NCBI RefSeq assembly: GCF_029360775.1
Contig: NZ_JARKMZ010000020.1
Coordinates: forward strand, 1 to 64,000
DNA: 64,000 nt
Origin: Daejeonella sp. H1SJ63
GTDB taxonomy: Bacteria > Bacteroidota > Bacteroidia > Sphingobacteriales > Sphingobacteriaceae
Reading direction: 5' to 3'
Below, in pieces: positions 16,650 through 64,000 of this stretch (its first letter is position 1; the number at the start of each line of letters is the position of its first letter). The notes below the pieces were generated by a model. It ran no database searches, was not told the origin of the DNA, and saw only the letters and a list, made by a program, of their open reading frames with translations. The position numbers were made by a program, and so were the translations under genes.

Positions 16650-16652
16650 TCA

Positions 16653-16702
16653 TAAGGCTGACAGTCCCGGACTTGATCCGGGATTGAACCCTGTCAGCCT
16701 TA
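16653..16702. repeat. nested palindrome, REP-like
   Basis: An outer perfect 12-bp stem (16653-16664 with 16691-16702, TAAGGCTGACAG) encloses an inner perfect 7-bp hairpin (TCCCGGA at 16665-16671 with TCCGGGA at 16677-16683). It is GC-richer than its surroundings and has no following T-run. It lies between the receptor stop and the thiE-like start. It resembles bacterial repetitive extragenic palindromes, but only one copy is seen in this window. Confidence 0.8.
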
Positions 16703-16712
16703 AATAAACGAT

Positions 16713-17348: not shown

Positions 17349-17384
17349 GGCTCTACTATTAAAAGCCTTTCCTATTTTTGAGGT

Positions 17385-17951
17385 ATGTCTTCACATCATA
17401 TCGTTCGCGAAAAGCAGGAACCGGCATTACTGATCATGAGCCTTGATGGCTTTGAGGATGAGAATCTGGGTCAGATTCTGGAATGGAGTCCGACGGTGAT
17501 TGTTCATGAAGATATTTATGAAGAAACCGATTCAATGGCCTTTAAAATTGATGCCGTTGTTACAAGTAATTCGCATTTCAGGACACAGGAAAACACACGT
17601 CTGATCATCACAGACACCGATCCGCTGGAAGATGCTTTTAAATTTCTGGTCGGAGAACAATACCCTGCAGTAAATGTAATCATCAATACCTTCGTGCTTA
17701 AAGATTATGCTCTTTTTGTTGATGAGATCAATATTGTAGTGTTTATAGGCAATAAAAAAATATTCCCTGTCAGATCAGGTTTCAGCAAATGGTTGCCGGC
17801 AGGTGAAAAAGTGGAGATTCTACATGAAGTACATCATCTGCAAACAAGCGGATTGATCCTGCTTGAAGATCATATTCTTGAAACAGAAAAAGATGGGTTT
17901 TATTCCCTCACATTTGAACAGCCTTTTATTTTCATAGCAGAAACTATTTAG
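17385..17951 (+). CDS. thiamine pyrophosphokinase-like, degenerate motifs
   Basis: A 188-residue protein whose opening (SSHHIVREKQEPALLI) and overall pattern resemble Bacteroidota thiamine pyrophosphokinases, enzymes that convert thiamine to TPP. The layout agrees: an LLEWSP-like LEWSPTVIV strand, then a position equivalent to GDFDS, then the D-x-x-D-x-E helix, then a C-terminal beta domain. The catalytic motifs are largely lost: the GDFD site reads VVTSNSHF (58-65) and the next motif reads TDTDPLEDAF (76-85). It may be an inactive TPP or thiamine sensor, or have another activity. The assignment rests on memory of the family and on position after thiE. A TATTTTTG box ends 4 bp before the ATG. 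Confidence 0.55.
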   Translation: MSSHHIVREKQEPALLIMSLDGFEDENLGQILEWSPTVIVHEDIYEETDSMAFKIDAVVTSNSHFRTQENTRLIITDTDPLEDAFKFLVGEQYPAVNVIINTFVLKDYALFVDEINIVVFIGNKKIFPVRSGFSKWLPAGEKVEILHEVHHLQTSGLILLEDHILETEKDGFYSLTFEQPFIFIAETI

Positions 17952-46969: not shown

Positions 46970-49069
46970 TTATCTAATCACGCTGCCATTATTGATAGCA
47001 GCGGGAGGCGCAACAAAACTAAGATTTCCATCTGAATTTTCAGCCATAAGAATCATTCCCTGTGATAAAATACCTTTGATCTCTCTTGGCTCAAGATTAA
47101 TCAAAACAGAAACCTGCTTCCCAATAATCTGTTCAGGTTCAAAATATTCTGCAATACCCGAAACAATAGTACGCTGATCCAGTCCGGTATCAATCTTTAA
47201 CTTAAGTAGTTTCTTTGTTTTTGCTACTTTCTCTGCTTCCAGAATTGTACCCACTCTGATATCCATTGATGCAAACTGATCAAAATTCACATTTGGCTTT
47301 GCATCTTCAGGTTTTATTGCTGCCTGAGCATTTGCCGCCTTACTGTCTGTCAGCTTTTTGATCTGTTCTTCAATCAGTGAATCTTCAATCTTTTCAAATA
47401 AGAGCGCTGCCTCATTAAGCTGATGCCCTGCTGAAAGAATATCGGTACTTCCTGCCTTGTCCCAGGTCTGAGTACCCATATTCAACATGTCTGCTAATTT
47501 TTTGGCGCTGAAAGGAAGAAAAGGACCGGCTAAAACGGCAAGATTTGCCGCAATCTGCAATCCGACATTAAGTACTGTTTTGACTCTGTCTTCATCTGTT
47601 TTGATCAGCTTCCAGGGCTCTTCATCAGCAAGATATTTATTTCCAAGGCGAGCCAGATTCATAAACTCAGAAAGTGCTTCCCTGAATCTGTACTGCTCAA
47701 TAGAAGCAGCAATCTTTGCAGGATATAATTTCATTTCCTCCATTACTTTTTGATCTGTTTCGGTAAACGGAGAACCCATCATAACCTTGCCACCGAAATA
47801 CTTGTGCGACAGAACCAAAACCCTGTTTACAAAATTTCCGAAGATTGCTACCAGCTCATTATTATTTCTTGCCTGAAAATCCCTCCAGGTAAAATCATTG
47901 TCTTTGGTTTCAGGCGCTGTTGATGTCAGCACATATCTGAGTACGTCCTGCTTGCCCGGAAATTCATGAAGGTATTCATGAAGCCATACCGCCCAGTTTC
48001 TTGAAGTGGAAATCTTATCACCCTCAAGATTGAGGAATTCATTTGCCGGTACATTATCTGCAAGAGTAAACTGTCCGTGAGCCATTAGCATGGCAGGGAA
48101 TATGATGCAATGAAAAACAATATTATCCTTACCGATAAAGTGGACAAGCTTGGTTTCCTTGTCATACCAATACTTCTCCCAGCTCTCAGTTGGTCTCAGC
48201 TCTTCATTTAAATAATATTCCGACTTTTTTTCAGCACCAAGTTGCTGATTACAAAGGTCTTTTGTACCCGAAATATAGCCGATAGGGGCATCAAACCAAA
48301 CATAAAGAACTTTACCATCAGCACCTTCCACTGGAACTTTTACTCCCCAATCAAGATCACGCGTCATGGCGCGTGGATTTAACCCGCCACTAAGCCATGA
48401 TTTACATTGACCATAAACATTTGGCTTCCATTCTTTATGTGAATCAATATAAGCTTCAATCTGAGGCTGCATTTTATCCAATGGAAGGAACCAGTTCCTT
48501 GTTTTCTTCAGAATAGGTTGTGCTCCCGATAAAGTTGAATGAGGATTGATCAGTTCTGTCGGGCTTAATGAGGTACCGCACTTTTCGCATTGATCTCCAT
48601 ACGCTTCTTCATTACCGCATTTAGGACATGTCCCAACAATATATCTGTCAGCTAAAAACTGCCCTGCTTTCTCATCATAATACTGTTCAGTTTCCTCTTC
48701 ATCAAATACCCCCTTATCATAGAGTGTTCTGAAAAATCCGGAAGCGGTTTCATGATGAGTTGGCGATGAAGTTCTATGATAAATATTAAATGATACACCA
48801 AAATCGCGGAAAGAATCGCCGATAATCTTATGATATTTATCAACCACCTGCTGTGGATCTACACCTTCTTTTCTCGCCTTCAGTGTAATTGGAACTCCGT
48901 GCTCATCTGATCCGCAAACAAAGATCACATCCTTTCCTGTCGATCTGAGAAATCTCACATAGATATCAGCAGGAATGTATACACCTGCCAAATGGCCAAT
49001 ATGAACCGGTCCGTTAGTGTATGGAAGAGCCGCTGTAACCGTATACCTCTTGAATTTATCGTTTCCCAA
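46970..49069 (-). CDS. metG: methionyl-tRNA synthetase
   Basis: A 699-residue class I synthetase charging tRNA-Met. HIGH lies at 23-26, a four-Cys zinc knuckle ([18 protein letters not shown]) near 147-164, the KMSKS loop in the form DKISTS near residue 351, and a C-terminal Trbp111-like tRNA-binding domain from about 590 ([20 protein letters not shown]). The start is TTG (49067-49069); no ATG lies in frame between it and the promoter box, and the family's NFKRYTVT-like opening falls here. tRNA-Arg follows five bases after the stop. Confidence 0.97.
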
Positions 49070-49252: not shown

Positions 49253-50185
49253 TTGACTAATCAGCTAAATCATCCATTCAAAACGCCCCCTTACCTGAAA
49301 AAGGGAGATACCGTAGCGATTACCTGCCCGGCAAAAAAATTGCCTTCCGGTATCGGTGAAGCCGTACGTTTACTCGAATCATGGGGGCTCAGAGTATTAC
49401 TTGGTGATACTGTGGAAGCCTCATGGCATCAATTTGCCGGAAATGATGAACTCCGGACTGGTGATTTCCAGCGTTTTCTGGATGATGAGAATGTAAAAGC
49501 CATATTTGCTGCGCGTGGAGGCTATGGAACAATCCGGATAATAGACCGGCTTGATTTTAGCGGCTTCAGAGATCATCCAAAATGGATTATAGGCTTCAGT
49601 GATATTACCGTACTGCATAGCCATATTCAGGCTTTGTATAAAACCGAGAGCATTCACGGGCAAATGCCGATAAGCATTCCTGAAGGATCAAAGTTTTCAC
49701 TGGAAATCCTGAGAAAGGCGCTATTCGATGAGTCAATTGAATACAGCTATAAAAGCATCCTTAAAAACAGACCGGGCAACAGCACAGGAATTCTGACAGG
49801 AGGTAACCTTACACTTCTGGTAATGATGTCGGGATCTGTATCTGAGCAGGACTATACCGATAAGATTCTGTTTATTGAGGATGTTGGCGAATATTTGTAC
49901 TCCCTCGACAGGATGATGTGGAATCTAAAGCGTTCAGGCAAGTTAAATAATCTTAAGGGACTGATTGCAGGCTCATTCACAGAAATGAAAGACAATGATA
50001 TTCCATTCGGACAAAATGCCGAACAAATCATTATGGATCATGTTAAAGAGTTTGATTATCCGGTATGTTTCAATTTCCCGGCCGGACACATTGCAGATAA
50101 CCGGGCCTTAATTTTAGGAAGAACAGTGTCACTTCAGGCAGAAGATTATGCAGTAAGAATGATTTATAAAACCGATCATTTGTAG
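49253..50185 (+). CDS. LD-carboxypeptidase (S66 family)
   Basis: A 310-residue serine peptidase of the S66 family. It removes the terminal D-Ala from murein tetrapeptides during cell-wall recycling. The nucleophile is Ser116 in GFSDIT, preceded by FAARGGYGTIR; the Glu and His partners are in LFIEDVGEYLYSLDRMM and FPAGHIADN. There is no signal peptide, consistent with a cytosolic recycling enzyme. The start is TTG at 49253, as no ATG occurs before the conserved KKGDTVAITCPA segment. A dipeptide epimerase that could act in the same pathway is encoded at 21604. Confidence 0.93.
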   Translation: MTNQLNHPFKTPPYLKKGDTVAITCPAKKLPSGIGEAVRLLESWGLRVLLGDTVEASWHQFAGNDELRTGDFQRFLDDENVKAIFAARGGYGTIRIIDRLDFSGFRDHPKWIIGFSDITVLHSHIQALYKTESIHGQMPISIPEGSKFSLEILRKALFDESIEYSYKSILKNRPGNSTGILTGGNLTLLVMMSGSVSEQDYTDKILFIEDVGEYLYSLDRMMWNLKRSGKLNNLKGLIAGSFTEMKDNDIPFGQNAEQIIMDHVKEFDYPVCFNFPAGHIADNRALILGRTVSLQAEDYAVRMIYKTDHL

Positions 50186-50316: not shown

Positions 50317-51813
50317 TTATCTCCAGCCTCCGTTAGAAGTATTGGTACCATCTGCTTTTGCAACAGTTCCAAAAGTATAGAATGGTTCAGTTAAGCCCAT
50401 AGTCTGCTGAGTTTTAGCAGGAATTGGCAAGTGCAAAGGCGTACCTTTCTGTAAAAGATCCCTTTTTCTCATTTCAAAGAACTGCAAGCCAAGACCGGTT
50501 GTATACATCTCAACATGACGCTCATGATGAATTGCCTGAACTATGTCTGCAGACACTGCAGCAACATCAGCCATCTGACCACGGGTCTTACGGGTACTTG
50601 CATTGATAATTGCAGCAGCACCTGCAAGATCAGTTGTATATGCTCTTGCTTCAGCTTTCAGCATATCATTTTCAGCTTTCATTACCTGCGCTTTTGGACC
50701 AACACCGGCAACATACAGATCATCATATCGCTTATTTCTGTATGGAGAATAGTGATAATAACCTCTGGCAGCCTGAAACCATTGTGAACCAACATATTCA
50801 AAATCAGTCTTTAAACGCTGATCAACCGGATTTGTAGATGCAGTTGGATAAGGGAAAGTTGGACTGTCAGTCCAGTGCTGAGGCTTGGTAGGATCCATCA
50901 TGTTCACAACATAATTGTCTGTTACACCCCATCCCTGATAAACAAGATAGTCACCAGCTTCATCATACCACTTAGCATATCCATCCTGCACTACAATAAA
51001 ATCAGATGTAATTCCTGCATCAGCATAGGTCTTTACTTTAGCCCAGTTTACAGCCGCCAGCTGGCTTTTGTTACGGGGAGTATAAGACATGATTCTTGCA
51101 GCAAATGTACTTGCCAGTTTTTTGAATTCAGCACTTGTATAATCTTTATCAGTACCCAACCATTCTTTTGGAATAGTGAAGGTATTTGCCCCAGCCAGAG
51201 CAATTGCTTCGTCAAGATAAATTAAAGCCTGTGCAGATACTGCGGTATAAGAATCTGCAGCATCAACAGTTGATCCTTTTGCCGGAGTTTTTTCATCTAC
51301 AATAAACGCTCTGTCAAAAACCATTGCAAGGTTGCCGTAACCAAGCCCCTGTGCAAATTTACACATAGCCTTAGTTCTTGGATTTCCTGCACCTGCAGCT
51401 CCAATATTCACACCTTCATTTATTGCTTTCAACACATCAGAAGCTGTATTGATGGCAGAATACATATTATTCCATAAATGAAGCGTGGAAACCTGATAGC
51501 TGTAAGTAGGAGCGTTATTCCATGCGTTGTTGCGGGGCTCCCATGACATATCCCTCATGGCTTGATTACCCCATGAACATGATACGTTATCTGCAGCAGT
51601 TGCAAGCATCATCTTTGATCCGCTAAATGCATTCTCGCCAACATAAATAGTGTTATATAAACCCGAGGTTAAGTTTTCAAGTGCAATACCATTGGAGAAT
51701 ACTTTATCAAAATCGGGCTGATTTAAGTTTTCTACCTGCAGCAAATCTTTTTTACAACCCTGTACTAAAAACAAGGTCAGTGCGATTGCATATATATATT
51801 TAATTTTTTTCAT
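50317..51813 (-). CDS. SusD/RagB family outer-membrane lipoprotein
   Basis: A 498-residue SusD-family protein. The lipobox VQGC (Cys20) is followed by KKDLLQVENLNQPD. The helical TPR-like core and the C-terminal RHVEMYTTGLGLQFFEMRKRDLL segment (family form ER..E...EG.R..DL.R) are present. It pairs with the SusC gene whose stop lies 24 bp upstream on the minus strand, and should form the lid of that transporter. Ligand unknown. Confidence 0.93.
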   Translation of the reverse strand: MKKIKYIYAIALTLFLVQGCKKDLLQVENLNQPDFDKVFSNGIALENLTSGLYNTIYVGENAFSGSKMMLATAADNVSCSWGNQAMRDMSWEPRNNAWNNAPTYSYQVSTLHLWNNMYSAINTASDVLKAINEGVNIGAAGAGNPRTKAMCKFAQGLGYGNLAMVFDRAFIVDEKTPAKGSTVDAADSYTAVSAQALIYLDEAIALAGANTFTIPKEWLGTDKDYTSAEFKKLASTFAARIMSYTPRNKSQLAAVNWAKVKTYADAGITSDFIVVQDGYAKWYDEAGDYLVYQGWGVTDNYVVNMMDPTKPQHWTDSPTFPYPTASTNPVDQRLKTDFEYVGSQWFQAARGYYHYSPYRNKRYDDLYVAGVGPKAQVMKAENDMLKAEARAYTTDLAGAAAIINASTRKTRGQMADVAAVSADIVQAIHHERHVEMYTTGLGLQFFEMRKRDLLQKGTPLHLPIPAKTQQTMGLTEPFYTFGTVAKADGTNTSNGGWR

Positions 51814-51837: not shown

Positions 51838-54800
51838 TTAGAAATCCATTGATAATGAGAATGCATAATTTCTGAAGTTTGGATATTTATAAGTTCCATC
51901 GTATGGTTGTCTTAAACTTCCAACTTCAGGATCATATCCACTATAGTCTGTAAATGTAAGCAGGTTACGTCCAACAACTTTTGCTGTAATACTTTTAACC
52001 ACGCCACCAAATACATTTAAGCTCTTCAATGGGAATGTATAACCTAAAGCAACTTCTCTTAATTTCAAATATGTACCGTCTTCAACCCAATAGCTGTTCG
52101 GGGTATTTACATCATAGAAATTAAGGAAATAATCGTATGCTTTCTTTTCTCCCTGAGGCACACCAGCCATATCCATTTCAGGGTTTCTAAGATCTCTTGT
52201 TAACCACTGGCCTTTTGCATTGTAGATGTCCCCGCCTTTCTTAAGGTCAAGCAGGAAATAAAGGGTAGCTCCTTTGTAGTTGAAGGTATTTGATAATCCC
52301 ATATTGAAATCAGCATTACCATCGCCAATCTTAGTAAATAAGTTAGCACCTTTTGAATCTAATTGTTTAATAGCTTTCTCGGCGGTTGTACCCTGTGTAC
52401 CCTTAGCTATAACAAATCCTCTTGAATTTATTTCATAGTCTGCAATTGTTTTACCTGCAGGTAACTGCTTCGCCATCTGATCCAGTGATTTTACCCAGGT
52501 ATGACCATACATTGCTCCATAGGTTTCATTTTCTTTAACATAGAACATCTGCTGCCCGCCACCATCAGTATCACCGAAGGTATAGGCCGGAATTGGAAGA
52601 CTGGTAATTTTTTGTCTGATTCTTGAGAACACGAGATTAGAACTCCATGAAAAATCTTTCTTTTTCATCCAGTTAGCTCCAAGGCTAAACTCAAAAGTCT
52701 TACTCTCAACAGAACCTGCATTCTGGAACTGACTTGTAAAACCATTATTCAGAAATCCTAATAATGGAGCATTAAGGAACTGATCATTTGTTGTAGACTG
52801 AGCATAAACAGCTTCGAAAGTAAAGTTCTTCAGGAAGTCAACATTTAAACCAATTTCAGTTTCTGCAGTTTTTGAAGGCTTCAGGTTTACGTTACCTTTC
52901 TGAACAGCTGAAGCAGAACCATTGCTCAATGTAAAGGTCTCATATTGCCATGCAAAACCCGGACGAATACCTGCAGTTCCATAAGCAGCTCTGATTTTTA
53001 ATTCATCAATACCTTTGATCTTAAAATCTTCAGAGATACGATATGCTCCTGAAGCTCTGAAATATGGGTTCCATCTTTCTTCTGACCCGAATAGGGATGA
53101 ACCATCATAACGGAACATTCCGTCGAACAAGAACTTATCTTTATAATCAAGACCTAAAATTGCAAAGTAGTTCTGAGCTCTTTCAGTTTCATCATATGAT
53201 TCAGCATCATTGATCACAGCGAAGTTGTCATAGGTTGGAATGCCCTCTACACCAAACTGTGATGAGGATACCTCATAATTTTCAAATCTGCGGTTTTCAT
53301 ACAGGTAAGAAAGTTTTCCTTTAACTGTAAGATCACCAAAGGTCTTAGCCATGTTAATGGTAGCCTGAGTATTCTGGCTGTTTCCGGCTTCTGAATAATC
53401 CTGAAGACCTCCGTTAGTGTAAGACATTCCATTAGTTGCTGCAGTACCTCCTGTTGGAGTCCAGGTATCTTTTGGATTGTATAAACGGTAACGGTAGTTA
53501 CTTCTTTCAATAGAATGAGACAGATCAATATTAGCCCATGAAGTAACTCTTGCATTCAATGCAAAGTTTCCTACCCAATTAAACTTCTTGTTATTTCTAT
53601 CTGTTTTATAAAGGGTGTACAATGGGTTAACTGTTTCACCACTCCAGTGGTTCATACGTAAATAGTATGGCTGACCATCCGGATTGAACTGGTTAAGGTT
53701 AACATCTGGTTCAGCTAAAGCAACGTTGAAGAAAACCGCTCCGGTTGATCCGGGATATTCAGTTTTAGTGTTGATCAATAAATTGGAAGTGCTGAACTTT
53801 AACCAGGGAGCAATTTGCTGATCTACGTTAAAACGGAAATTTTGTCTTTTGTATCCATCAGTCATTGCGATTACACCCTGCTGAGCATTATTCTCAAATG
53901 AAGCATAAACTCCAGTCCTTTCAGTTCTGGAAGCCATTGATACGAAGTTCGAATAGTTAACTCCGGTATTAAAGAAATCATTTTGCTGATTACGGGTTAC
54001 ACCGTAAGGATTATCCATATAATGATCGGCTTTGGGAGTCCTGTTTCCGGTAATTAACGGACTGTGACCCGCATCGCGATATCCTGCCGGATATGTAACA
54101 CCCTGGTACTTGGTGAAAGTACCCGCATACTGCTGATAATCTGCAGCAAGAGCGAATGGATGGTGAGTAGCAAGATCAAGGGTATTTGCAATATCCTGAA
54201 CACCGGCTTCATTTCTTATATTGATTTTTACAGCATTCATTCCAATGCTGTTACCCCTTTTAGTGGCTATTGCAATCACACCATTACCTGCTCTTGAACC
54301 ATAAAGAGCTGATGCAGCAGCACCTTTTACAACCTCCATTGAGGAAACGTCATCTGCGTTAATATCTGAAAGAGACCCTGTAAAAATAACTCCATCAATC
54401 AGGATAAGAGGTCCGGATCCTACATTATTCAGGTTATTATCAGCTCTTAACTGAATATCAACACCGCCACCCGGAGTTCCGCTTGGAGCGCTTGCCTTAA
54501 TACCGGCAACTTTACCTGACAGAGCACCGGCCAGTGATGTACCGGTTACAGCGTTTAATCTTTCCTCACCCACCTTGGTTACAGATACTGTCATCTTTTC
54601 TTTGGTAGTAGCACCAGCAACACCGGTAACAATTACTTCAGACAACTGTTTGGCATCAGTTGATAGTTGTACATTAGCTGTATTATTTGCACTGATTGTA
54701 ACTTCTTGTGAAGAGTAGCCTATATAGGTAATCACAAGAGTATTATTTGCCCCTGGTACACGAAGGCTGAATTTACCGTCGCCACCTGTAGAGGTTCCGA

Positions 54801-54948
54801 TATTAGTTCCTTTAACTTTAATACTAACTCCCGGTAATGGTAAACCATCCGTTTTGTCAGTTACTGTTCCTGTAACAGTACGTTCCTGTGCTATAGCCTG
54901 AAAAGCTATAAATAGCAGCAAGAACAAACTTTGTAGAAGTTTTTTCAT
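51838..54948 (-). CDS. SusC/RagA family TonB-linked outer-membrane protein
   Basis: A 1036-residue SusC barrel. Signal peptide MKKLLQSLFLLLFIAFQAIAQ, CarboxypepD_reg-like domain (about 23-100), TonB-box-like LSEVIVTGVAG, plug (about 115-235, with GAAASALYGSRAGNGVIAIATKRG) and barrel ending FRNYAFSLSMDF. Its first 44 codons and leader are almost identical at DNA level to those of the SusC gene at 59935, while the remainder differs, so the two are fed by different plug/barrel modules behind one shared expression cassette. Paired with the SusD gene downstream. Confidence 0.95.
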   Translation of the reverse strand: MKKLLQSLFLLLFIAFQAIAQERTVTGTVTDKTDGLPLPGVSIKVKGTNIGTSTGGDGKFSLRVPGANNTLVITYIGYSSQEVTISANNTANVQLSTDAKQLSEVIVTGVAGATTKEKMTVSVTKVGEERLNAVTGTSLAGALSGKVAGIKASAPSGTPGGGVDIQLRADNNLNNVGSGPLILIDGVIFTGSLSDINADDVSSMEVVKGAAASALYGSRAGNGVIAIATKRGNSIGMNAVKINIRNEAGVQDIANTLDLATHHPFALAADYQQYAGTFTKYQGVTYPAGYRDAGHSPLITGNRTPKADHYMDNPYGVTRNQQNDFFNTGVNYSNFVSMASRTERTGVYASFENNAQQGVIAMTDGYKRQNFRFNVDQQIAPWLKFSTSNLLINTKTEYPGSTGAVFFNVALAEPDVNLNQFNPDGQPYYLRMNHWSGETVNPLYTLYKTDRNNKKFNWVGNFALNARVTSWANIDLSHSIERSNYRYRLYNPKDTWTPTGGTAATNGMSYTNGGLQDYSEAGNSQNTQATINMAKTFGDLTVKGKLSYLYENRRFENYEVSSSQFGVEGIPTYDNFAVINDAESYDETERAQNYFAILGLDYKDKFLFDGMFRYDGSSLFGSEERWNPYFRASGAYRISEDFKIKGIDELKIRAAYGTAGIRPGFAWQYETFTLSNGSASAVQKGNVNLKPSKTAETEIGLNVDFLKNFTFEAVYAQSTTNDQFLNAPLLGFLNNGFTSQFQNAGSVESKTFEFSLGANWMKKKDFSWSSNLVFSRIRQKITSLPIPAYTFGDTDGGGQQMFYVKENETYGAMYGHTWVKSLDQMAKQLPAGKTIADYEINSRGFVIAKGTQGTTAEKAIKQLDSKGANLFTKIGDGNADFNMGLSNTFNYKGATLYFLLDLKKGGDIYNAKGQWLTRDLRNPEMDMAGVPQGEKKAYDYFLNFYDVNTPNSYWVEDGTYLKLREVALGYTFPLKSLNVFGGVVKSITAKVVGRNLLTFTDYSGYDPEVGSLRQPYDGTYKYPNFRNYAFSLSMDF

Positions 54949-55039
54949 ACTTAATTGGTTTTGAAATGTTTAAAAAGAGGGTTGAATTATTTGGTTACTT
55001 TAATATCAAAGTTGAGCAACATAAATGTTACAACAAAAT
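54823..55039 (-). repeat. 217-bp SusC leader repeat, copy 1
   Basis: Covers promoter, untranslated leader, signal peptide and first part of the CarboxypepD_reg domain of the SusC gene. About eight mismatches to copy 2 at 59810-60026 (constant offset 4987). Similarity falls sharply outside both ends. Confidence 0.9.
55007..55038 (-). promoter_or_regulatory. promoter of the SusC gene ending at 51838
   Basis: On the minus strand, TTTTG (55038-55034) and CAACTTTG (55014-55007) are separated by 19 bp, close to the Bacteroidota arrangement TTTG-N19-TAnnTTTG. The first base of the -7 box deviates (C for T). Confidence 0.6.
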
Positions 55040-55245
55040 TATATTATTACTATTTTTAAAATAATAATATAAATGCCTGATAATCAATTGATTAAATTTG
55101 ATTGGATTCAAATATTCAACGTAGTATTTTAAAATAATACCCGGAATTGCGACAAGTAAACCGGAATGTTAAGCATCATTCATTAAAATATAGTATATAA
55201 ACAGCCAATAATTCCATAATATTTTTGCGGTAAAAATCCTTTAAA
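55040..55245. other. AT-rich spacer upstream of SusC
   Basis: No ORF. Two TATTTTAAAATA-like palindromes (55051-55063 and 55125-55136) occur in otherwise AT-rich sequence; I attach no function to them. Confidence 0.4.
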
Positions 55246-55287
55246 TATAAAAGAGCCCCAATAGATATCCATTGGGGCTCTTTTATA
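55246..55287 (-). terminator. terminator of the second minus-strand SusC-SusD pair
   Basis: A perfect 17-bp stem (55246-55262 with 55271-55287), GC-rich in the middle with A/T-rich ends, lies 12 bp after the SusD stop. Confidence 0.9.
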
Positions 55288-55298
55288 TTAAAACCGAA

Positions 55299-56783
55299 TT
55301 AATTTGGTGTCATCAATTTATTATTAGCAAGCTCCTGAGCTGAAATAGGCCAGATATATGCCGGTGAACTGGATGCCACTGCCTGGGCAACATTGGTAGC
55401 ATCTGACTTTGCAGGAATTGTTGCCCCTAATCTCAATAGATCAGTTGAGCGGAATCCTTCACAAATTAATTCTATTCTGCGTTCTGTCAGAATAGTATTT
55501 ATTAAAGCAGCTTGTGTACCAATATCAGCTAATGGGAAAACATAGTTTGCATCAGACCTTTTTCTAACTTCAGATAATAAGGCAAGGCCCCGAACAATAT
55601 TGCCACTTCTGGCATGTGCTTCAGCCGCATTAAGTAATACTTCCGCGTAACGAATTACAGGTACATAATCTGTATACGGAGACGGCTTTTTGAACTTAGA
55701 AACAAAGTTCTTGGTTCCATTAGCTATAATAAAGGCTTTACGGGCATCTGTTGAACCTGCAGCATAAACAGGATTTGCAAAAATACCCGCAGGATTCAGG
55801 TAATATTCTTCAAATCCACCTACTGATTGTGCAGTATAATAATGTGCTAATTGATTCTGGGTTCCCGGAGGGCTCAGATCAGTCATAGGTAAGAAAAATA
55901 CAGCTTCAGAACCGGTATAGGTACCACCATATACGGTTGCAATATTTGCCTCTAACTGCATGGTTACACCAGAGGTTGATTTAAACGGCGCTGTAGCACT
56001 AATGATCTTATTTGACTCTTCAATAACTTTAGGATAATTACCCATTGCAAGATAAACCCTTGTTTTCAAAGCTATTACGGTATTTTTATGAGCCCTTGAA
56101 CTGTTCAAAGCTGCATTCGAATAAGTAGCAGGCAAGCCGGTTTCAGCCTCATCAAGATCTTTCAGGATCTGGGTATAAACCTGTGCAACTGTACTTCTGG
56201 CCAGATCATTGTTAGCCGAAGTGGTTTCAGCCTGTATACGCAACGGAAGGCCGGGATTAGCTCCATTACCCATAGTATATGGCTTAGCATACAATTGTAA
56301 AAGATTAAAGTAACAGAATGCTCTTACAAATTTTGCTTCAGCACGATATTGGTCTGCAAGGGCAGTACTCACTACGCCTGCGCTTCCATCAATACCTTTT
56401 AGAAACACGTTTGCCTGATTGATCGTAGAGTAAGCAGTATTCCAAAAGTTTACCACCTCATTGGTAGCAGAATTCAAATTATGTCTCCAGGTATCCAAAC
56501 CGGTAACCCCGTTTGGTTTATTGACTATAAAGTCTTCCCCTCTGATATCCTGATAAATTAAAAATCTTCCGCCTAAATGTTGTCCGCTTTTTAAACCGCC
56601 ATAAAGTCCGTTTACCTGTCCGAGGATCCGATCAGGAGTGGCAAATGCAGTAGCATCAGAAAGACTGGTTTCGGGAAAGGTCTCCAAAAAGTCTTTCTTA
56701 CACGATACGGAAACCGTACTTAACAGTAAGACAATAAAGAACAATCTTAGTGCCTTCACTTTATTTATTTTCATATTTTCCAT
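55299..56783 (-). CDS. SusD/RagB family outer-membrane lipoprotein
   Basis: A 494-residue SusD-family lipoprotein with lipobox SVSC (Cys28) and the common KKDFLETFPETSLSDATAF opening. The SusD core segment FVRAFCYFNLLQLYAKPYT (about 130-150) and the C-terminal ILTERRIELICEGFRSTDLLR are textbook for the family. An ATG three codons in (56774) is an alternative start. It lies 17 bp after the SusC stop. Ligand unknown. Confidence 0.95.
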   Translation of the reverse strand: MENMKINKVKALRLFFIVLLLSTVSVSCKKDFLETFPETSLSDATAFATPDRILGQVNGLYGGLKSGQHLGGRFLIYQDIRGEDFIVNKPNGVTGLDTWRHNLNSATNEVVNFWNTAYSTINQANVFLKGIDGSAGVVSTALADQYRAEAKFVRAFCYFNLLQLYAKPYTMGNGANPGLPLRIQAETTSANNDLARSTVAQVYTQILKDLDEAETGLPATYSNAALNSSRAHKNTVIALKTRVYLAMGNYPKVIEESNKIISATAPFKSTSGVTMQLEANIATVYGGTYTGSEAVFFLPMTDLSPPGTQNQLAHYYTAQSVGGFEEYYLNPAGIFANPVYAAGSTDARKAFIIANGTKNFVSKFKKPSPYTDYVPVIRYAEVLLNAAEAHARSGNIVRGLALLSEVRKRSDANYVFPLADIGTQAALINTILTERRIELICEGFRSTDLLRLGATIPAKSDATNVAQAVASSSPAYIWPISAQELANNKLMTPN

Positions 56784-56800
56784 TTCGAATTCATTAATAA

Positions 56801-59800
56801 TTAAAATCCAACATTTAAACCAAATGTAATTGTTCTGCCCAATGGCACTGAGTTCCTGTCAACACCTGGTGCCAGGTTAGAGTTTCCATTAACAGATACT
56901 TCAGGGTCTGCACCAGCGTAATTTGTGAATACCAGAAGATTAGTAGCCTGAGCATACATTCTCAGGTTAGATATACCGGTTCTGCCAAGATATTTTGCAG
57001 GAATAGTATAACCTAAAGAAACATTTCTCAATTTCAAAAAGTCTCCCTTGTAAACGTTCGCTGACATTGGAACAGCAGAACCATTAGATGTATTATCTCC
57101 GTAAACTACACGGGGTATATCGGTTACCTGTCCTGCAGTGGTCCATCTTCTCAACATTCCGGCTTCATTATTCCAGAAACGCTGATCTCTCAAACCTGCC
57201 TGAGTACCATAATAGATATAATTTCCACCAGAGTATGTAATTCCCAGATTTAGATCAAATGCTTTGTATTTAAAGTTGTTATCAAATCCGCCGTAAAAAG
57301 TAGGAATTGAGTTACCCCAGATCCTTGCATCTGCAACTGCATCAATTGCAGGAGCAACTTGTCCGGCATTTGCACCATCGAGGTATAAATAACGGCTTGC
57401 AGCCGGCCTCTGGAAACTAAAGCGGACCTTTTGTCCGTTTCTGTTTACAAAAACACGCTCGCCGGTTGCAGGGTCAACACCTGCTGTTTCTACCACAAAT
57501 ATCTGACCTAAAGAATAGCCGACTCTGGTCCTGTTTGCAGTTTCAAGAGATGTAACACCCGGAAGATCTGCATTGTTATTTGCCAGTGAAGTCACTTCAT
57601 TTTTGATGAATGAAATATTAAAGTTTGAAGACCAGCGGAAATTACCTTTTTCAATATTGGTTGAATTAATTGAGAACTCCCATCCTTTGTTAAACATTCT
57701 TCCAATATTGGTAGTGATCTGATTACCCGGAATACCTTTTGAAGGCGATTGAGGAGCTGCCTGAATTAACTGATCGATATCGTTATAAAAGTAGTCGGCA
57801 TCAAACTCGATACGACCATTTAAGAACGCCATGTTAATACCAATATCCGTTTTTGTACTTGTTTCCCATCTTAAATCTGCGTTACCCGCCTGGCTGTATC
57901 CAAGACTTGGAACAGCACCATAAAGACCGGTACCATACAATGACAATGCAGGGAAATCACCAATATTGATATTGCCAACCACACCATAACTGCCTCTTAA
58001 TTTAAACTGAGACATGATATCAGCTAGCTTTGAATTCTGGAAGAAATTCTCCTGAGATATATCCCATCCAACAGATGCACCTCCAAAGTTACCCCACTTC
58101 TGTCCGGCAGCTAAACCCGAATAACCATCCCGTCTGAAACTACCGGCAAGGAAATACTTCTTTTTAAAATCATAGTTCGCACTTCCAAAAACCGACCTGA
58201 ATGCATTTATCCCACGTCCATTACCTGCAGGTATGATCGTGCCAAACCCTCCCTGATATACTTCAATGAACGGATCTGAAACATTCTGCCTTGTAGCACC
58301 CCAGGATGAGCCAATTGAGCTTTGCTCTTCATAACCTCCGAGGGCAGATACATTATGTGAAGAGGCTATTGTTGTATTGTAACTAAGTGTATTAACCCAG
58401 TTCCATCTGTTATTTCTTGAATAGGTATTTGTTGCACTACCATTTGGCGAAAAACCATCACCCTGGTACTTGTTCGCAAAAGCAATGTTTTCTGTAAGCA
58501 AATTATCCATACCATAACTGGTTTTCAGAACCATTCCCTTTATAAGATCAACTGAGGCATAAACATTTCCTATTAGCCTGTTATTCTCAGAAGTGAATTT
58601 ATCTTCTTTTAGCAGTACTTCGGCATTCGGATAATTAGAAGCTACCGCCGAATTGTTGGCACCAAAACCAATTGCTCCGCCATTCATATGATAGGTTCCA
58701 TCCGGATTATAAGCAGGTACGTTAGGAGGCAATACAATTGCCAAACGGCCTAAACCTACAGTAGAGAAAGCCTGACCTGGTAATGAGCCGGTATTTGGCG
58801 CTTTATTGTAAGTATTAGTAAATGAGAAATTAGAACCAACTTTGATCCTGTTTGTCAATTTATGATCCAGGTTAACCCTTCCTATTTTACGCTGAAAATC
58901 ATTGTTTCTGATAAACCCTTCCTGATCACTGAAACCAACAGAAACATAGTGTGATGTTTTATCAGTTGCACCTGAAAAATTCAATGCATGATTTTGTGAA
59001 ACTCCGGTACGATATGCTACTTTATACCAATCTGTGTTTACTGTACTGCCATCTGCCAGTGTTTGCAAAAAGAATCTGGCAGGTGTACCTATATTAGCCA
59101 GGGCCTCGTTTTTCATGGTTACATAACCCTGAGCATCCAGCAATTCAGGCAAATTACTGGCTTCATTAAAGCCTGCCCAGGCTTCATAATTTACTTTAGT
59201 CGAACCTTGTTTACCTTTTTTTGTAGTGATAACCACTACTCCGTTTGATGCTCTCGAACCATAGATAGCTGATGCGGCAGCATCTTTTAAAATATCTATT
59301 GACTCAATGTCGGAAGGGTTGATATCACCTAAAGCATTTCCCGCAGCATTTGTACCGGATGCATCCCCGGTGTAAACAGGAATACCATCAACTACGATCA
59401 AAGGATAAGAACTCAAAGAAATTGAATTAAACCCTCGAATGCGGAATACCGGAGGATTGTTCAGAACCCCATTGGGCATCACAATATTTACACCTGCAGC
59501 CTTGCCAGCAAGGGCCTGCTCAAAACTTTGAACCGGCTGATTTTTAAGTTTGTCGCCGCTTACACTCACAACTGAGCCGGTTACATCCTTTCTGGATTGT
59601 GTACCGTAACCCATAACAACAACTTCGCCCAGTTGCTGCTGGTCAGAAGTTAATGTAACATTAATTGTTTTCGAAGAACCAATGTTTATAGTTTGCCTGA
59701 CATAACCCACAAACGCAAATTCGAGCTGAGTTCTGCCTTCGGGAACATTAATAGAATACGTGCCATTGGCAGAAGTTTGTGTACCAAGGTTAGAACCTTT

Positions 59801-59935
59801 TACTATAACACTAACTCCAGGCAATGGTAAACCATCCGTTTTGTCAGTTACTGTTCCTGTCACAGTACGTTCCTGTGCTACAGCCTGAAAAGCTATAAAT
59901 AGCAGCAGGAACAAACTTTGTAGAAGTTTTTTCAT
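56801..59935 (-). CDS. SusC/RagA family TonB-linked outer-membrane protein
   Basis: A 1044-residue SusC barrel: signal peptide MKKLLQSLFLLLFIAFQAVAQ, CarboxypepD_reg-like domain (about 23-98), TonB-box-like LGEVVVMGYGTQ, plug (about 115-240, with IDILKDAAASAIYGSRASNGV) and barrel ending RTITFGLNVGF. The plug has the standard SusC pattern, so this is a conventional glycan- or peptide-type importer. The leader and first 42 codons are shared with the SusC gene at 54948. Paired with the SusD gene 17 bp downstream. Confidence 0.96.
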   Translation of the reverse strand: MKKLLQSLFLLLFIAFQAVAQERTVTGTVTDKTDGLPLPGVSVIVKGSNLGTQTSANGTYSINVPEGRTQLEFAFVGYVRQTINIGSSKTINVTLTSDQQQLGEVVVMGYGTQSRKDVTGSVVSVSGDKLKNQPVQSFEQALAGKAAGVNIVMPNGVLNNPPVFRIRGFNSISLSSYPLIVVDGIPVYTGDASGTNAAGNALGDINPSDIESIDILKDAAASAIYGSRASNGVVVITTKKGKQGSTKVNYEAWAGFNEASNLPELLDAQGYVTMKNEALANIGTPARFFLQTLADGSTVNTDWYKVAYRTGVSQNHALNFSGATDKTSHYVSVGFSDQEGFIRNNDFQRKIGRVNLDHKLTNRIKVGSNFSFTNTYNKAPNTGSLPGQAFSTVGLGRLAIVLPPNVPAYNPDGTYHMNGGAIGFGANNSAVASNYPNAEVLLKEDKFTSENNRLIGNVYASVDLIKGMVLKTSYGMDNLLTENIAFANKYQGDGFSPNGSATNTYSRNNRWNWVNTLSYNTTIASSHNVSALGGYEEQSSIGSSWGATRQNVSDPFIEVYQGGFGTIIPAGNGRGINAFRSVFGSANYDFKKKYFLAGSFRRDGYSGLAAGQKWGNFGGASVGWDISQENFFQNSKLADIMSQFKLRGSYGVVGNINIGDFPALSLYGTGLYGAVPSLGYSQAGNADLRWETSTKTDIGINMAFLNGRIEFDADYFYNDIDQLIQAAPQSPSKGIPGNQITTNIGRMFNKGWEFSINSTNIEKGNFRWSSNFNISFIKNEVTSLANNNADLPGVTSLETANRTRVGYSLGQIFVVETAGVDPATGERVFVNRNGQKVRFSFQRPAASRYLYLDGANAGQVAPAIDAVADARIWGNSIPTFYGGFDNNFKYKAFDLNLGITYSGGNYIYYGTQAGLRDQRFWNNEAGMLRRWTTAGQVTDIPRVVYGDNTSNGSAVPMSANVYKGDFLKLRNVSLGYTIPAKYLGRTGISNLRMYAQATNLLVFTNYAGADPEVSVNGNSNLAPGVDRNSVPLGRTITFGLNVGF

Positions 59936-60026
59936 ACTTAATTGATTTTGAAATGTTTAAAAAGAGGGTTGAATTATTTGGTTACTTTAATATCAAAGTT
60001 GGGCAACATAAATGTTACGACAAAAT
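59810..60026 (-). repeat. 217-bp SusC leader repeat, copy 2
   Basis: Second copy of the block described at 54823-55039, with about 96% identity by eye. Both non-coding and coding parts are conserved to the same degree. Confidence 0.9.
59994..60025 (-). promoter_or_regulatory. promoter of the SusC gene ending at 56801
   Basis: TTTTG (60025-60021), a 19-bp spacer and CAACTTTG (60001-59994) on the minus strand, the same arrangement as in copy 1. Confidence 0.6.
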
Positions 60027-60577
60027 ATATTTATTATTATTTTAACATAAACCATATAACTAACTGAAGATCAGTATTTTAATTTATACTGCGGCATAGC
60101 AGATAAAAATATTATGCATGCATTGTGAAATGTTGCATCTGACCCTTAAAAAGGAAGAGAGGAGGTAAAAATAATTTCTCTGATTCTTTATGAAAACACC
60201 AATCTGTCTGTCTCTGGATTCAAGACCATTTTCTGATTTTCGACCTTAAGCAGGGCTTTGAATGAAAATTCAACTTCCATCTACTTTTGAGAGGTTCCCT
60301 GTGACCATCCGGCGTATTTACGAATATGCAGCTATGCCCCTGTCATAATGCTGAAGTCCATCCGCCTTTCCTTCTTCCTCAGTCTCTCCCTTTTACAGGA
60401 TCTTTCATATCTGGCTGAAATAGCAGGATCCAATACTTTGCATACCTCCTGAGCAAATACAAGTACAATAAAGAATATTACAAGCAGGCAGGTATAAAAC
60501 TAATTTCAAAAATTTCGCTTTCATATCCATTTTATTACAATGTGCCGAAAATTTGTTTCTTAAAATAAGATGAAAAC
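60027..60577. other. 551-bp intergenic region with gene remnant
   Basis: Apart from the decayed reading frame at 60332-60530 I see no intact ORF or RNA gene. Sequence at 60150-60330 carries several stops in every frame. Confidence 0.5.
60332..60530 (-). pseudogene. frameshifted small secreted-protein remnant
   Basis: From ATG 60528-60530 the frame reads MDMKAKFLKLVLY, then loses sense. Shifting by one base gives TCLLVIFFIVLVFAQEVCKV, which completes a typical signal peptide, and continues about 35 basic residues to a TAG at 60332-60334. One frameshift thus joins a charged start to a hydrophobic core and an AQE cleavage-like site. The homologue is not recognised. It could be chance, but the signal-peptide architecture is suggestive. 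Confidence 0.4.
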
Positions 60578-60619
60578 AAAAGAGACCGCATTGATTAAGT
60601 ATCAGATACGGTCTCTTTT
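60578..60619 (-). terminator. terminator of the last SusC-SusD pair
   Basis: A perfect 11-bp stem AAAAGAGACCG with its complement (60578-60588 with 60609-60619) and 20-nt loop lies 25 bp after the SusD stop; its descending arm ends in T's on the minus strand. Confidence 0.8.
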
Positions 60620-60643
60620 AATAGAAACTTAAAAAATAAAGTA

Positions 60644-62089
60644 TTATTTATCCCACCAGATTCTGGTAGTCAGATTATCTGCACCCTGACGAGTTACCGC
60701 CTCTGCGTAACTCTTTCCATTAATAGAACCTTCGTTGGTAGGGTAACCCTGCCTGCGCGGAATGGTTGGCTGGTTACCATTTGGAGCTGCTGCCAGTACC
60801 GGGAATCCGGTCCTCCTCCAATCGGCCCATGATTCATATCCATTCAGATAAAGATGAACCCATTTTTGGGTCATAATCTGCTCCAAACCTTTGGCTGTAT
60901 CATAAGCAACAGCTGTCTGTGCCATATAAGCAGCATAGGTACCCGCATTATAAACACCGTAGGTTTCCATTGAAGCCTTAATAGCATTTGCATAATGGGT
61001 AGCTGCTAACACTTCTCCACCTGCAATCCAGCCTTGTTTAGCTGCTTCTGCCTGGGTAAATAATACCTGAGCATAGGAATAAATTAATGCAGGGGATCCG
61101 GCACCGCGGAATTTATCACCTATTCGACTGTATGCACCCGGAATATTAACGGCTGTGTTCGATCCATAAGGCAAGCCTATAACCTTACCGGCCAATACTT
61201 CACCATAAACAGGTAAACGCGGATCATTCTTGGGCTCCATATAGTCTGTCATCACCTTACTGATAGCATAATCATTACGTAAACTTGTGGTATAGTTATC
61301 AAACCATGGGTTAAAATTGTTGGGATCACCGGACAGGAATTTATAGAACATGTTTTCGGAATTGTTGCTAATTACACCACTTGCGATGGCATCAGCCATT
61401 TCAGCTTTACCTTTTGCATTATCTACCTTCATTAAACGCAACGACATGAAAAGTCGCGTTGTATTAGCAAATTTTTTCCATGCAGCCATATCCCCTTCAA
61501 ATAACTGGTCACCCCTTACTCCTGTCTCAGCAGTTTTAATCTGGGCTGCAGCCTCCTTAAGTTCTTTAAAAAGATCAGTATAAATACTTTGTTGAGTATC
61601 ATACTTCGGACTAAAATTACCATCACCTTTTAAAGCTTCTGAATAAGGAATATCTCCAAACCGATCTGTTAACCACCAATAATAATAAGCTTTCAAAATT
61701 CTTGCAACTGCGATCTGATTGTCTTTTGATCCATTCACACCGACTTCTGCCAATGGGCTTCCTGAGTTGGCATTATTAATGATGCTCTTCAGGTTATACA
61801 AAGGTCCGGTATAATGTGGAGCCCATTCAAAATTGCGGACAGAGTACAACGAAGCACCAGGGTACGGGCCTTCAGAAATGTGCTGTATGTACATATTTGC
61901 CGAATGGCGACTTCCTGCAGTTCCGGGAAAAGCAGTTCCAGGCAATGACTGCAAAGCATTAGTCAGCAGTGCTTTATTCGGAACAGTACTTACGGCCGTC
62001 GGGTTAATATTGGTATCTCCGAAGTCGCTTGGATCACATGCTGTTAACAGCATGACGGATCCTATGATTAAACTAAATATTTTTTTCAT
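60644..62089 (-). CDS. SusD/RagB outer-membrane lipoprotein (SusD-like_2 type)
   Basis: A 481-residue lipoprotein with lipobox LTAC (Cys18) followed by DPSDFGDTNINPTAVS, the SusD-like_2 opening, like the SusD at 45126 and unlike the two between. The closing segment YLNGYESWADWRRTGFPVL is characteristic, and the C-terminus TRIWWDK matches the LWWDKN ending of the first SusD. It pairs with the SusC gene 17 bp upstream. Confidence 0.94.
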   Translation of the reverse strand: MKKIFSLIIGSVMLLTACDPSDFGDTNINPTAVSTVPNKALLTNALQSLPGTAFPGTAGSRHSANMYIQHISEGPYPGASLYSVRNFEWAPHYTGPLYNLKSIINNANSGSPLAEVGVNGSKDNQIAVARILKAYYYWWLTDRFGDIPYSEALKGDGNFSPKYDTQQSIYTDLFKELKEAAAQIKTAETGVRGDQLFEGDMAAWKKFANTTRLFMSLRLMKVDNAKGKAEMADAIASGVISNNSENMFYKFLSGDPNNFNPWFDNYTTSLRNDYAISKVMTDYMEPKNDPRLPVYGEVLAGKVIGLPYGSNTAVNIPGAYSRIGDKFRGAGSPALIYSYAQVLFTQAEAAKQGWIAGGEVLAATHYANAIKASMETYGVYNAGTYAAYMAQTAVAYDTAKGLEQIMTQKWVHLYLNGYESWADWRRTGFPVLAAAPNGNQPTIPRRQGYPTNEGSINGKSYAEAVTRQGADNLTTRIWWDK

Positions 62090-62106: not shown

Positions 62107-64000
62107 TTAAAATCCAACTCTCAAATTCAAACCAATCGACCTGGTTGAAGCCAACTGGCCACCTTCCTTACCGAAGCCTTCCAGCTCTGATGGATCCAAT
62201 CCGAATTCTTTTGCAGGGGCTGAGATCAACCATGCATTATTCACAATTGCCCCTAAAGTAACCCTGCTAACAGGAATATTCCCCAGGTATTTTTTGGGTA
62301 TAGTATATCCTAAACGAACTTCACGAAGTTTCATATAAGAAGCACTTAAAAGATAGTTTCTGGTATCACGCTGATTGTTCGTATAGAAATGTCTCCTTGC
62401 TGCAATATAGGTATCAAGTGGTGCACCTGCTGAGGTTACACCAGTGATGTGAACACCGCCACCTAAAGAAGGAAATGTACGAACATTATTTCCTTTATCA
62501 TTTAATCCAACAGTAGCTTCTGTTAAACCTGTTCCGTCGCCATACATTTTAGTCAGTGAATAAAACTGACCACCTTTCTGGAAATCTAAAGAGAATGAAA
62601 GATCTACTCCTTTGTACTTTAAACTGTTGTAAAAACCACCTGTAAAATCAGGCATCATTGAACCCAGGTTATTATTGATCGTATAATCAACAGTACCTGC
62701 AGAACTTGTATAAACAGTCTTTCCATTAGCATCCAGCTTATGCATCCGGCCAACCATTTGTCCCCATGGTTTGCCAACCTGGTTTTCTATGCGGAAGTCG
62801 TTACGCTGAGTATCATATAAGTAAGTGTTCAGACCTTCAGCAAGTTCTTTAACAATAGATTTAGCTTTTGCAAAATTCAAAGCCGCAGTCCAGGTAAAAT
62901 TGTTCTTGGTAACAGGTGTTCCGCTAATACTTAATTCCCAACCTTTACGCTGGATATTACCTGCATTGATTTGGGCTGTTGTAAATCCGGATGCAGGAGC
63001 TACGTTTAGTCCGAGGATCTGATTAGTATTATTATCTAGATAATAAGTCAGATCAAAACCTATTCTGTCTTTTAAGAAACGCATCTCTGTACCTAATTCA
63101 AATGATTTGGTTAAAGATGGCAATACCTTTCCTGTCCTGAATTGGTCACCAATTGAAGCAGATGGGTTACTGCCATAAATTGAACCGTTATTAATCGCAA
63201 CATCAACCTGGTATGGATCTAAATCAGAACCAACCTGGGCAAAACCCCCTCTTATTTTACCGAATGATAAAACATTTGAAATTCCGCCTTTCAGCAGTTC
63301 ACTGAAAACTATGCTTGTTGATACAGATGGGTACAGGTATGAATTATTTGCAGCCGGTAATGCAGAAGACCAGTCGTTTCTTAAGGTAGCATCTAAATAG
63401 AAAAATGCTTTATAACCAAATGAAGCCTTACCATAAATACTTCTTACTTCTTTTGCAGAATATCTAGTAATAGTATTGGGACGTGTAACTGATGCTGCAA
63501 TATCAAAATAGTTAGGGAATGTTAATCCACCGGTAGTTTGATTATCCAGACGATCATTTTTATTGGTACGAATATTTCCCCCAACAAATCCATCAACTGT
63601 GATGTTGCCAAATCCTTTTCTGAAATTCAGATTAGTTTCATAGTTCATTTCATTATTAACCAACTGATAGGTTGAATAGCCCGGCTGCTGCAAACCGCCT
63701 GAAGCAATTCTAAAATTGCCCTTGCCATTGTCATAATCCATACGAACAAAAGAGGTGACATTGAAAATATCATTGATCTTATATTTGAAACCCATGTTAC
63801 CAACAATCCTGTTTCCGATATCAGTTCCATAATTCTCTTTTACAATAAAATATGGGCTGTCCCAATATTGAGGCTGCAGATATAATGTTGGATCACCTGT
63901 TGAGTTAGGATCACCTATATTCCAGGAATTCAGTGTACCATCTGCATTCCTGTAATTTTTCAGGCGCTTCATATCCAATTGCCTTTGAAACCACTGGTTG
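62107..64000 (-). CDS. SusC/RagA family protein, 5' part outside window
   Basis: The C-terminal part (about 630 residues) of a SusC barrel. The reading frame stays open to the window edge (residues NQWFQRQLDMKRL read from 64000 inward), so the gene continues beyond it and the methionine near 63970 is internal. Barrel features include WELSISGTPVTKNNFTWTAALNF and a closing LASTRSIGLNLRVGF ending in Phe. Its partner SusD is of the SusD-like_2 subgroup, so it should resemble the plus-strand pair at 41977. Confidence 0.95.
   Translation of the reverse strand, partial: NQWFQRQLDMKRLKNYRNADGTLNSWNIGDPNSTGDPTLYLQPQYWDSPYFIVKENYGTDIGNRIVGNMGFKYKINDIFNVTSFVRMDYDNGKGNFRIASGGLQQPGYSTYQLVNNEMNYETNLNFRKGFGNITVDGFVGGNIRTNKNDRLDNQTTGGLTFPNYFDIAASVTRPNTITRYSAKEVRSIYGKASFGYKAFFYLDATLRNDWSSALPAANNSYLYPSVSTSIVFSELLKGGISNVLSFGKIRGGFAQVGSDLDPYQVDVAINNGSIYGSNPSASIGDQFRTGKVLPSLTKSFELGTEMRFLKDRIGFDLTYYLDNNTNQILGLNVAPASGFTTAQINAGNIQRKGWELSISGTPVTKNNFTWTAALNFAKAKSIVKELAEGLNTYLYDTQRNDFRIENQVGKPWGQMVGRMHKLDANGKTVYTSSAGTVDYTINNNLGSMMPDFTGGFYNSLKYKGVDLSFSLDFQKGGQFYSLTKMYGDGTGLTEATVGLNDKGNNVRTFPSLGGGVHITGVTSAGAPLDTYIAARRHFYTNNQRDTRNYLLSASYMKLREVRLGYTIPKKYLGNIPVSRVTLGAIVNNAWLISAPAKEFGLDPSELEGFGKEGGQLASTRSIGLNLRVGF

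Follow-up and report, generated by a model that had tools for sequence, protein, structure and literature searches.

The analysed window, the first 64,000 nucleotides of contig NZ_JARKMZ010000020.1 of Daejeonella sp. H1SJ63, contained susC-susD pairs arranged in tandem on the minus strand in the order susC3-susD3, susC2-susD2 and susC1-susD1. In this genome, the three pairs occupied a slot between an LD-carboxypeptidase gene and a PspC gene. Beyond the LD-carboxypeptidase gene lay a gene which we take to be metG, and beyond the PspC edge lay an M14 peptidase-like gene followed by another that is presumably murF. Pfam analysis revealed CarbopepD_reg and Plug domains in all three SusC proteins, and SusD2 and SusD3 matched different SusD families. 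SusD1 had no Pfam match at 1e-4 and is possibly a member of a divergent SusD family. The promoter consensus of the Bacteroidota is TTG/TAnnTTTG, and putative promoters close to it were located in front of both susC1 and susC2. Another SusC start was present in the window at 41983-42126 on the plus strand; it was 58% identical to the leader peptide, the N-terminal peptide encoded at the front end of the susC genes, and it was absent from the DNA matches of the block described below. The features were as follows.

46970..49069, minus strand: gene past the slot edge (presumed metG), with homologs near the slot in relatives
49253..50185, plus strand: LD-carboxypeptidase gene (Peptidase_S66), slot edge
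50317..51813, minus strand: susD1, 498 aa, assigned as SusD by position only
51838..54948, minus strand: susC1, 1036 aa, CarbopepD_reg_2 and Plug, 87% amino-acid identity to genes of G009 and G019
54823..55039, minus strand: shared block, copy 1, with promoter-like boxes, 5' UTR and the first 42 codons of susC1
54922..54944, minus strand: 23-nt start element, copy 1, nt +5 to +27 of susC1, 0 mismatches
55007..55036, minus strand: putative promoter-like TTG-N19-CAACTTTG, copy 1, the best consensus fit (8/9 positions)
55240..55293, no strand assigned: probable terminator located between leader copy 1 and susD2, an inverted repeat with abutting 27-nt arms that are 93% complementary
55299..56783, minus strand: susD2, SusD_RagB and SusD-like_3
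56801..59935, minus strand: susC2, 1044 aa, CarbopepD_reg_2, Plug and beta-barrel
59810..60026, minus strand: shared block, copy 2, on susC2
59909..59931, minus strand: 23-nt start element, copy 2, on susC2, 0 mismatches
59994..60023, minus strand: putative promoter-like boxes, copy 2 (8/9 positions)
60644..62089, minus strand: susD3, SusD-like_2
62107..64000, continuing past the window to C13:65301, minus strand: susC3, leader 79% identical over 141 bp

Comparison of the two block copies (54823-55039 and 59810-60026) revealed that 209/217 bases were equal, with no gaps. With the start codons at 54948 and 59935 on the minus strand, the block ran from -91 to +126, and 91/217 of its bases were non-coding, so the original prediction of two SusC genes sharing a 217-bp block of about 96% identity was borne out. 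The BLASTN alignment of the two copies covered 284 bp at 91% identity (E 7.2e-108). The abrupt divergence that had been described at both ends was also seen: the equal bases of susC1 and susC2 fell to 32/48 at -140 to -92 and 12/30 at -170 to -140 upstream of the block, and to 26/44 at 126 to 170 and 39/90 at 170 to 260 downstream of it. The two SusC bodies shared 27-30% amino-acid identity, and the similarity therefore did not extend over the full genes as in a plain duplication. The proposed genome search for further copies yielded a weaker third one at C13:65161-65301, just beyond the end of the window (79% over 141 bp), where the start element of susC3 was degenerate (6/21 mismatches); beyond these three copies, the DNA matches were of at most 45 bases (best E 2.8e-4). 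The leader peptide matched 33 places in the genome at E<=10, mostly inside long open frames, and the DNA block matched three, which showed that most SusC-like genes of this genome did not carry the block. All three copies were on the minus strand. The inversion suggested for examination was not seen in the window, where the copies were direct repeats only.

The front ends and the bodies were each compared with those of relatives. The body of susC1 was closest to the 87% identical genes of G009 and G019, and that of susC2 had its best match in another genus (65%, G032; 68% to locus L149, also of another genus). The body of susC3 was 81% identical to a D. oryzae gene located outside the slot. 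In the 5' UTR (-50 to -1), susC1 and susC2 agreed at 49/50 positions, and susC1 and its G019 ortholog at 35/50. Over nt 0-63, the values were 61/63 for susC1-susC2, 61/63 for susC1-G019 and 63/63 for susC2-G019; the coding start was thus about equally alike in all three genes, and the excess likeness of susC1 and susC2 lay mainly in the UTR. Phylogenetic analysis of the bodies (residues 111-560 of the leader genes and the last 440 of the frames for other SusC, with models without mixture) rejected a single clade of leader-bearing bodies with an AU p of 3.4e-5 (38 rows vs 19; the 38 comprised the slot genes plus one on contig C4 of G015, all labelled as leader genes, some of which lacked the start element). 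It was rejected again with an AU p of 3.75e-6 when the 27 leader genes with at most 4 element mismatches were set against the 19 rows. Eight long-branch SusC of the own genome were left out of both constrained trees. In the tree that kept all 65 rows, a leader-bearing slot gene of D. oryzae (G015) was sister, with an SH-aLRT of 100, to a SusC of the H1SJ63 genome that was located on another contig and had a different 5' end.

The slot was variable among relatives. A search for the edge genes in 20 genomes of the genus Daejeonella revealed 13 occupied and 5 empty slots. There were three pairs in the own genome (G000), four each in G012 (under the name Flavihumibacter soli) and G015, two each in G001, G004 and G018 (Daejeonella lutea), and one each in G002, G003, G009 and G019 (G003 and G019 being Daejeonella sp.). 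G005, where the contig ended, and G016, where the contigs were broken and a second leader gene had no place, each held at least one pair, and the single pair of G014 was seen from one edge. No SusC was found within 20 kb around the edge gene of G013, and neither edge was found in G008. In three of the empty slots (G007, G011, and G017), a decayed leader was left without susC, as a signal-peptide remnant that had lost its start codon; in the other two (G006 and G010), no decayed leader was found when the slot was read. Beside the relic leaders (L108, L110, and L113) was a stretch that we take to resemble the gene of a DoxX-type membrane protein, and it was also recognised by eye in the empty slot of G010 (L109). 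The PspC edge gene had no match (E<=1e-40) in 9/20 genomes of the genus, including four of the five with empty slots. The second slot SusC of G001 (L089, about 14740-17841) contained a stop codon inside the conserved start of the signal peptide, and judging from its sequence, it may be non-functional or use a start further downstream.

Outside the genus, at least one clear edge gene was present in 31/80 named loci with leader-like SusC (Pedobacter, Hufsiella, Mucilaginibacter, and others) and in 15/20 loci retrieved by the start element. In Hufsiella, the array adjoined the PspC/M14 edge only, and the LD-carboxypeptidase gene was at another location. Leader-bearing SusC genes were also found outside the slot, on contig C4 of G015 and on contig C20 of G129, where no edge gene lay within the 10 kb read. 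In locus L241 (G109), two leader-bearing susCD pairs were in facing orientation on either side of metG and the LD-carboxypeptidase gene, as if one end of the slot had been inverted near a leader. The bodies of the 102 leader genes, for part of which the slot location was established, fell into 35 clusters (>=50% amino-acid identity), and arrays, including those of this one genus, contained different combinations of them. One body type (c0) was the last or last-but-one unit in most arrays, which implied that part of the array was inherited vertically.

The likeness of leaders within a genome was analysed with a set of 142 genes, reduced to 132 and then to the 102 with the element within 6/23 mismatches, under 49 genome labels; the labels of the named loci were set by hand, and an organism with two loci may have been counted under two labels. 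Nt 1-27 were excluded from the comparisons, and bodies below 45% identity were regarded as unrelated. Among the 79 genes that qualified, the closest leader attached to an unrelated body was in the same genome for 22, against a permuted mean of 2.4% and maximum of 8%, whereas the same nearest-neighbour test on the control stretch 391-690 gave 4/79. Of the 63 genes that qualified for the comparison with orthologs (body identity of the best ortholog 55-95%), 37 had a leader nearer to that of a paralog in the same genome and 26 had one nearer to that of the ortholog. An equal number of unrelated leaders drawn at random from other genomes won in 23.4/63 cases on average (maximum 31 in 300 draws); the 0/63 obtained with the body control stretch therefore overstates the contrast. 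The wins of the paralog were spread over 19/25 genome labels, and with a margin of at least 0.10, 19 leaders favoured the paralog and 11 the ortholog. The wins numbered 17/20 at an ortholog body identity of 55-70%, 12/16 at 70-80% and 8/27 at 80-95%. This pattern implied that leaders drift away from the history of their bodies over genus-scale time, and the few wins among the closest orthologs implied that homogenisation is slow or intermittent. The gap in mean leader likeness was modest (0.567 within a genome vs 0.522 between genomes). In a first set of 28 genes, the combined count was 11/28 (reached in 0/2000 permutations) and the control count was 4/28 (p 0.14), and the likeness of the signal peptides was 0.70 within vs 0.69 between genomes; this set included one row (G001.b) that was aligned 6 nt off its start, had a stop in the signal peptide and was excluded from the 102. 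The start of G020.b was placed at the first MKK. Ten pairs were profiled, and the clearest tracts ran from about -100 to +120-150. They were clear in the own genome (susC1-susC2), G124 and L137, which were recent cases of strong homogenisation, and weaker elsewhere. The peak of the between-genus profile was raised, as this profile was ungapped and its genes were prefiltered for the element. One genome per species was compared, and no exchange of leaders was observed within a species.

Allowing at most 2 mismatches, the 23-mer of the start element was found at 66 places in 33/121 genomes of the family, and the reversed control was found at none; a 21-mer at 3 mismatches was unspecific in the genus (26 matches vs 19 of the reversed control). 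In the 20 retrieved loci, all 42 element matches (41 distinct) were located at an ATG that opened a frame of at least 366 codons, some of these frames ending at the locus boundary. Codon analysis of 55 leaders of the LLQSLF type, gathered by DNA search or peptide patterns, showed that Ser7 was AGT in 55/55 (19% in the bodies), Leu8 was TTG in 52/53 (19%), Leu4 was CTT in 48/55 (16%), and Leu5 was CTA in 40/54 (6%). The codons of Ala15, Ala20 and Gln21 were mixed in the same leaders. Some later codons were skewed too (Ile19 ATA 17/18, Leu12 CTA 17/36, and Leu11 TTG 26/47), partly because the 55 rows are related. The near invariance of synonymous sites in codons 4-9 across genera points to a role of the nucleotides themselves at the gene start. 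In four Mucilaginibacter loci (L153, L157, L167, and L174), most of the element was kept with a three-base insertion (AAACTTCTACTAGTAAGTTTGT type), a genus-specific version. Initiation by Shine-Dalgarno pairing is mostly lacking in the phylum Bacteroidota. By analogy, we would guess that the element serves RNA-level control at the start codon, for example as the target of a small RNA or a protein, or as a weak hairpin. A target in the RNA is the preferred role because, in the part of the literature consulted, small RNAs of B. thetaiotaomicron are described as binding near the start codon of SusC.

A hairpin over the start codon (GAA-A-AAACTT/AAGTTT-G-TTC) could be folded in many leaders. Synonymous recoding of 57 genes of the LLQSLF type usually destabilised it (mean z -2.33), and in 36/57 at most 5% of the recodings were as stable as the native sequence, although these genes were near-identical at the hairpin and thus not independent. 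The effect was not seen in the other groups, with z of -0.26 in 10 Mucilaginibacter-type genes, -0.64 in 7 of Hufsiella/G031 and -0.61 in 26 other SusC genes. In the arms, 84.3% of the cells could pair, against 37-47.5% in slid versions, but 355/500 shuffles also reached 84.3%. RNAalifold showed 0/8 pairs changed on both sides and no compensatory changes. The hairpin is therefore not claimed, since its covariation failed the shuffle control. As candidates for a known RNA family, four Rfam hits were obtained in 54000-61000; all were under the gathering score and were taken as chance.

We consider it likely that recombination intermittently homogenises the promoter-UTR-signal-peptide block among the tandem susCD pairs of one slot. 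The slot is a tandem array of units, each made of a leader, susC and susD, with the leader comprising the promoter region, the 5' UTR, the start element, the signal peptide and the start of the CarboxypepD_reg domain. Since the leader is the main stretch common to the units, neighbouring leaders would recombine homologously, by gene conversion or by crossovers through which units are gained, lost or grafted, presumably through RecA-type recombination. From time to time, the leaders of one genome would grow alike, while the bodies would remain unrelated and their set would turn over. Such sharing may be selected because all units would gain one mode of expression and export, with the start element acting in the RNA at the start codon. 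The original prediction had offered copying of the block onto different transporter bodies or ongoing gene conversion, and the grouping of leaders by genome, the similar tract limits and the polyphyletic bodies agreed with it. Since the promoter region and the 5' UTR are nearly identical, it is plausible that the uptake systems are under joint control.

Several other explanations were weighed. The susC genes could be old tandem duplicates whose leader was held by purifying selection while the bodies diverged, and the strong constraint on codons 4-9, the conservation of the CarboxypepD_reg start in many SusC proteins and the about equal likeness of susC1, susC2 and the G019 gene in the coding block would fit. 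Outside the element, however, leaders clustered by genome above chance, the 5' UTR was far closer between susC1 and susC2 than between susC1 and its ortholog, and the leader-bearing bodies were not one clade, which makes this explanation very improbable. It is also quite improbable that a site-specific recombinase moves or excises units at the start element in the manner of the B. fragilis SusC/SusD shufflon. The element does overlap the start codon and contain an inverted repeat, but the copies in the window lay in direct orientation, each with its own promoter-like site, the tract extended about 100 nt beyond the element toward the body, and none of the 7 Phage_integrase matches (E<=1e-5) of the own genome was on this contig. 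The reading as an inversion system or shufflon was rejected on the direct orientation of the repeats in the window and the lack of an integrase on the contig. Selection on the element alone, with a small RNA or an RNA-binding protein acting on it in trans to co-regulate these transporters, would account for the fixed codons 4-9, and the FopS RNAs of B. thetaiotaomicron offer a precedent in the relevant passages of PMC11697453. It would leave the within-genome likeness of the UTR and codons 10-42 unaccounted for, and the covariation controls gave the hairpin no support; as the whole explanation, it is unlikely.

The capture of cassettes, in which the leader would be the site where susCD bodies newly acquired from other species are recombined into the slot, instead of conversion among long-resident units, is a possibility of some weight, if a doubtful one. 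The mixing of the 35 body clusters among arrays, even within the genus, and the existence of empty and relic slots favoured it, as did the nearest bodies of susC2, which lay in other genera. The neighbouring core genes, however, had similar identities to those of G032 (metG 69%, LD-carboxypeptidase 60%), and since the 65-68% of the susC2 body is about the level of core genes, vertical descent fits as well.

By appearance, the closest known system was the shufflon of B. fragilis (Tsr0667; region EE). Passages of PMC5729914 and PMC11852207 describe it as clustered susC/susD pairs with repeats that overlap the susC start codon and a content that varies among strains. The system has inverted repeats, an invertible promoter and a site-specific invertase. 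The arrays studied here were likewise clustered susC/susD pairs with a common sequence at the susC start. In contrast, the repeats were direct here, both 96% identical copies had a promoter-like site of their own and the contig was free of integrases; the orientation and the missing integrase argue against membership. As in concerted evolution by gene conversion, paralogs within a genome were alike above chance over a bounded tract and not outside it, but here only the 5' end was affected and the attached bodies were unrelated (about 25-35% amino-acid identity). The vsa/vlp surface-protein arrays of Mycoplasma combine a common promoter and signal peptide with differing bodies and switch expression by site-specific recombination. 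The common front end and different bodies resembled these arrays, and no silent units were identified here. The vsa system is named in part of PMC11852207. As to control at the start codon, PMC11697453 describes, in the passages concerned, repression of SusC translation in B. thetaiotaomicron by FopS RNAs that bind near the start codon. Such control would be consistent with the conservation seen around the start codon of susC; the agreement is one of position only, in another bacterial family, and the element here covered codons 2-9. As regards an integron-like array, there was no Phage_integrase match on the contig. No treatment of leader homogenisation among susCD arrays was recognised in searches of the open-licence PMC literature, where the term 'susc' also retrieved 'susceptibility'.

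Four findings went beyond the original prediction: a third susCD pair, variation of the slot among relatives, leaders surviving as relics, and a constraint that acts on the nucleotides of the first codons. SusCD pairs determine which substrates a Bacteroidota cell imports. The 23-nt element, with synonymous sites nearly fixed across genera, is a concrete candidate for a control site at the start codon. Tentatively, the slot could be a recombinase-free cassette platform in several genera of the Sphingobacteriaceae that gains, loses and swaps units from about 35 types, in which the leader would serve both as homology arm and as expression and export module, and the start element as a new site of post-transcriptional control shared by all units. 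If homogenisation proceeds as proposed, a fixed slot with a re-copied front end would explain how unlike transporters come to have the same mode of expression and export with no recombinase involved.
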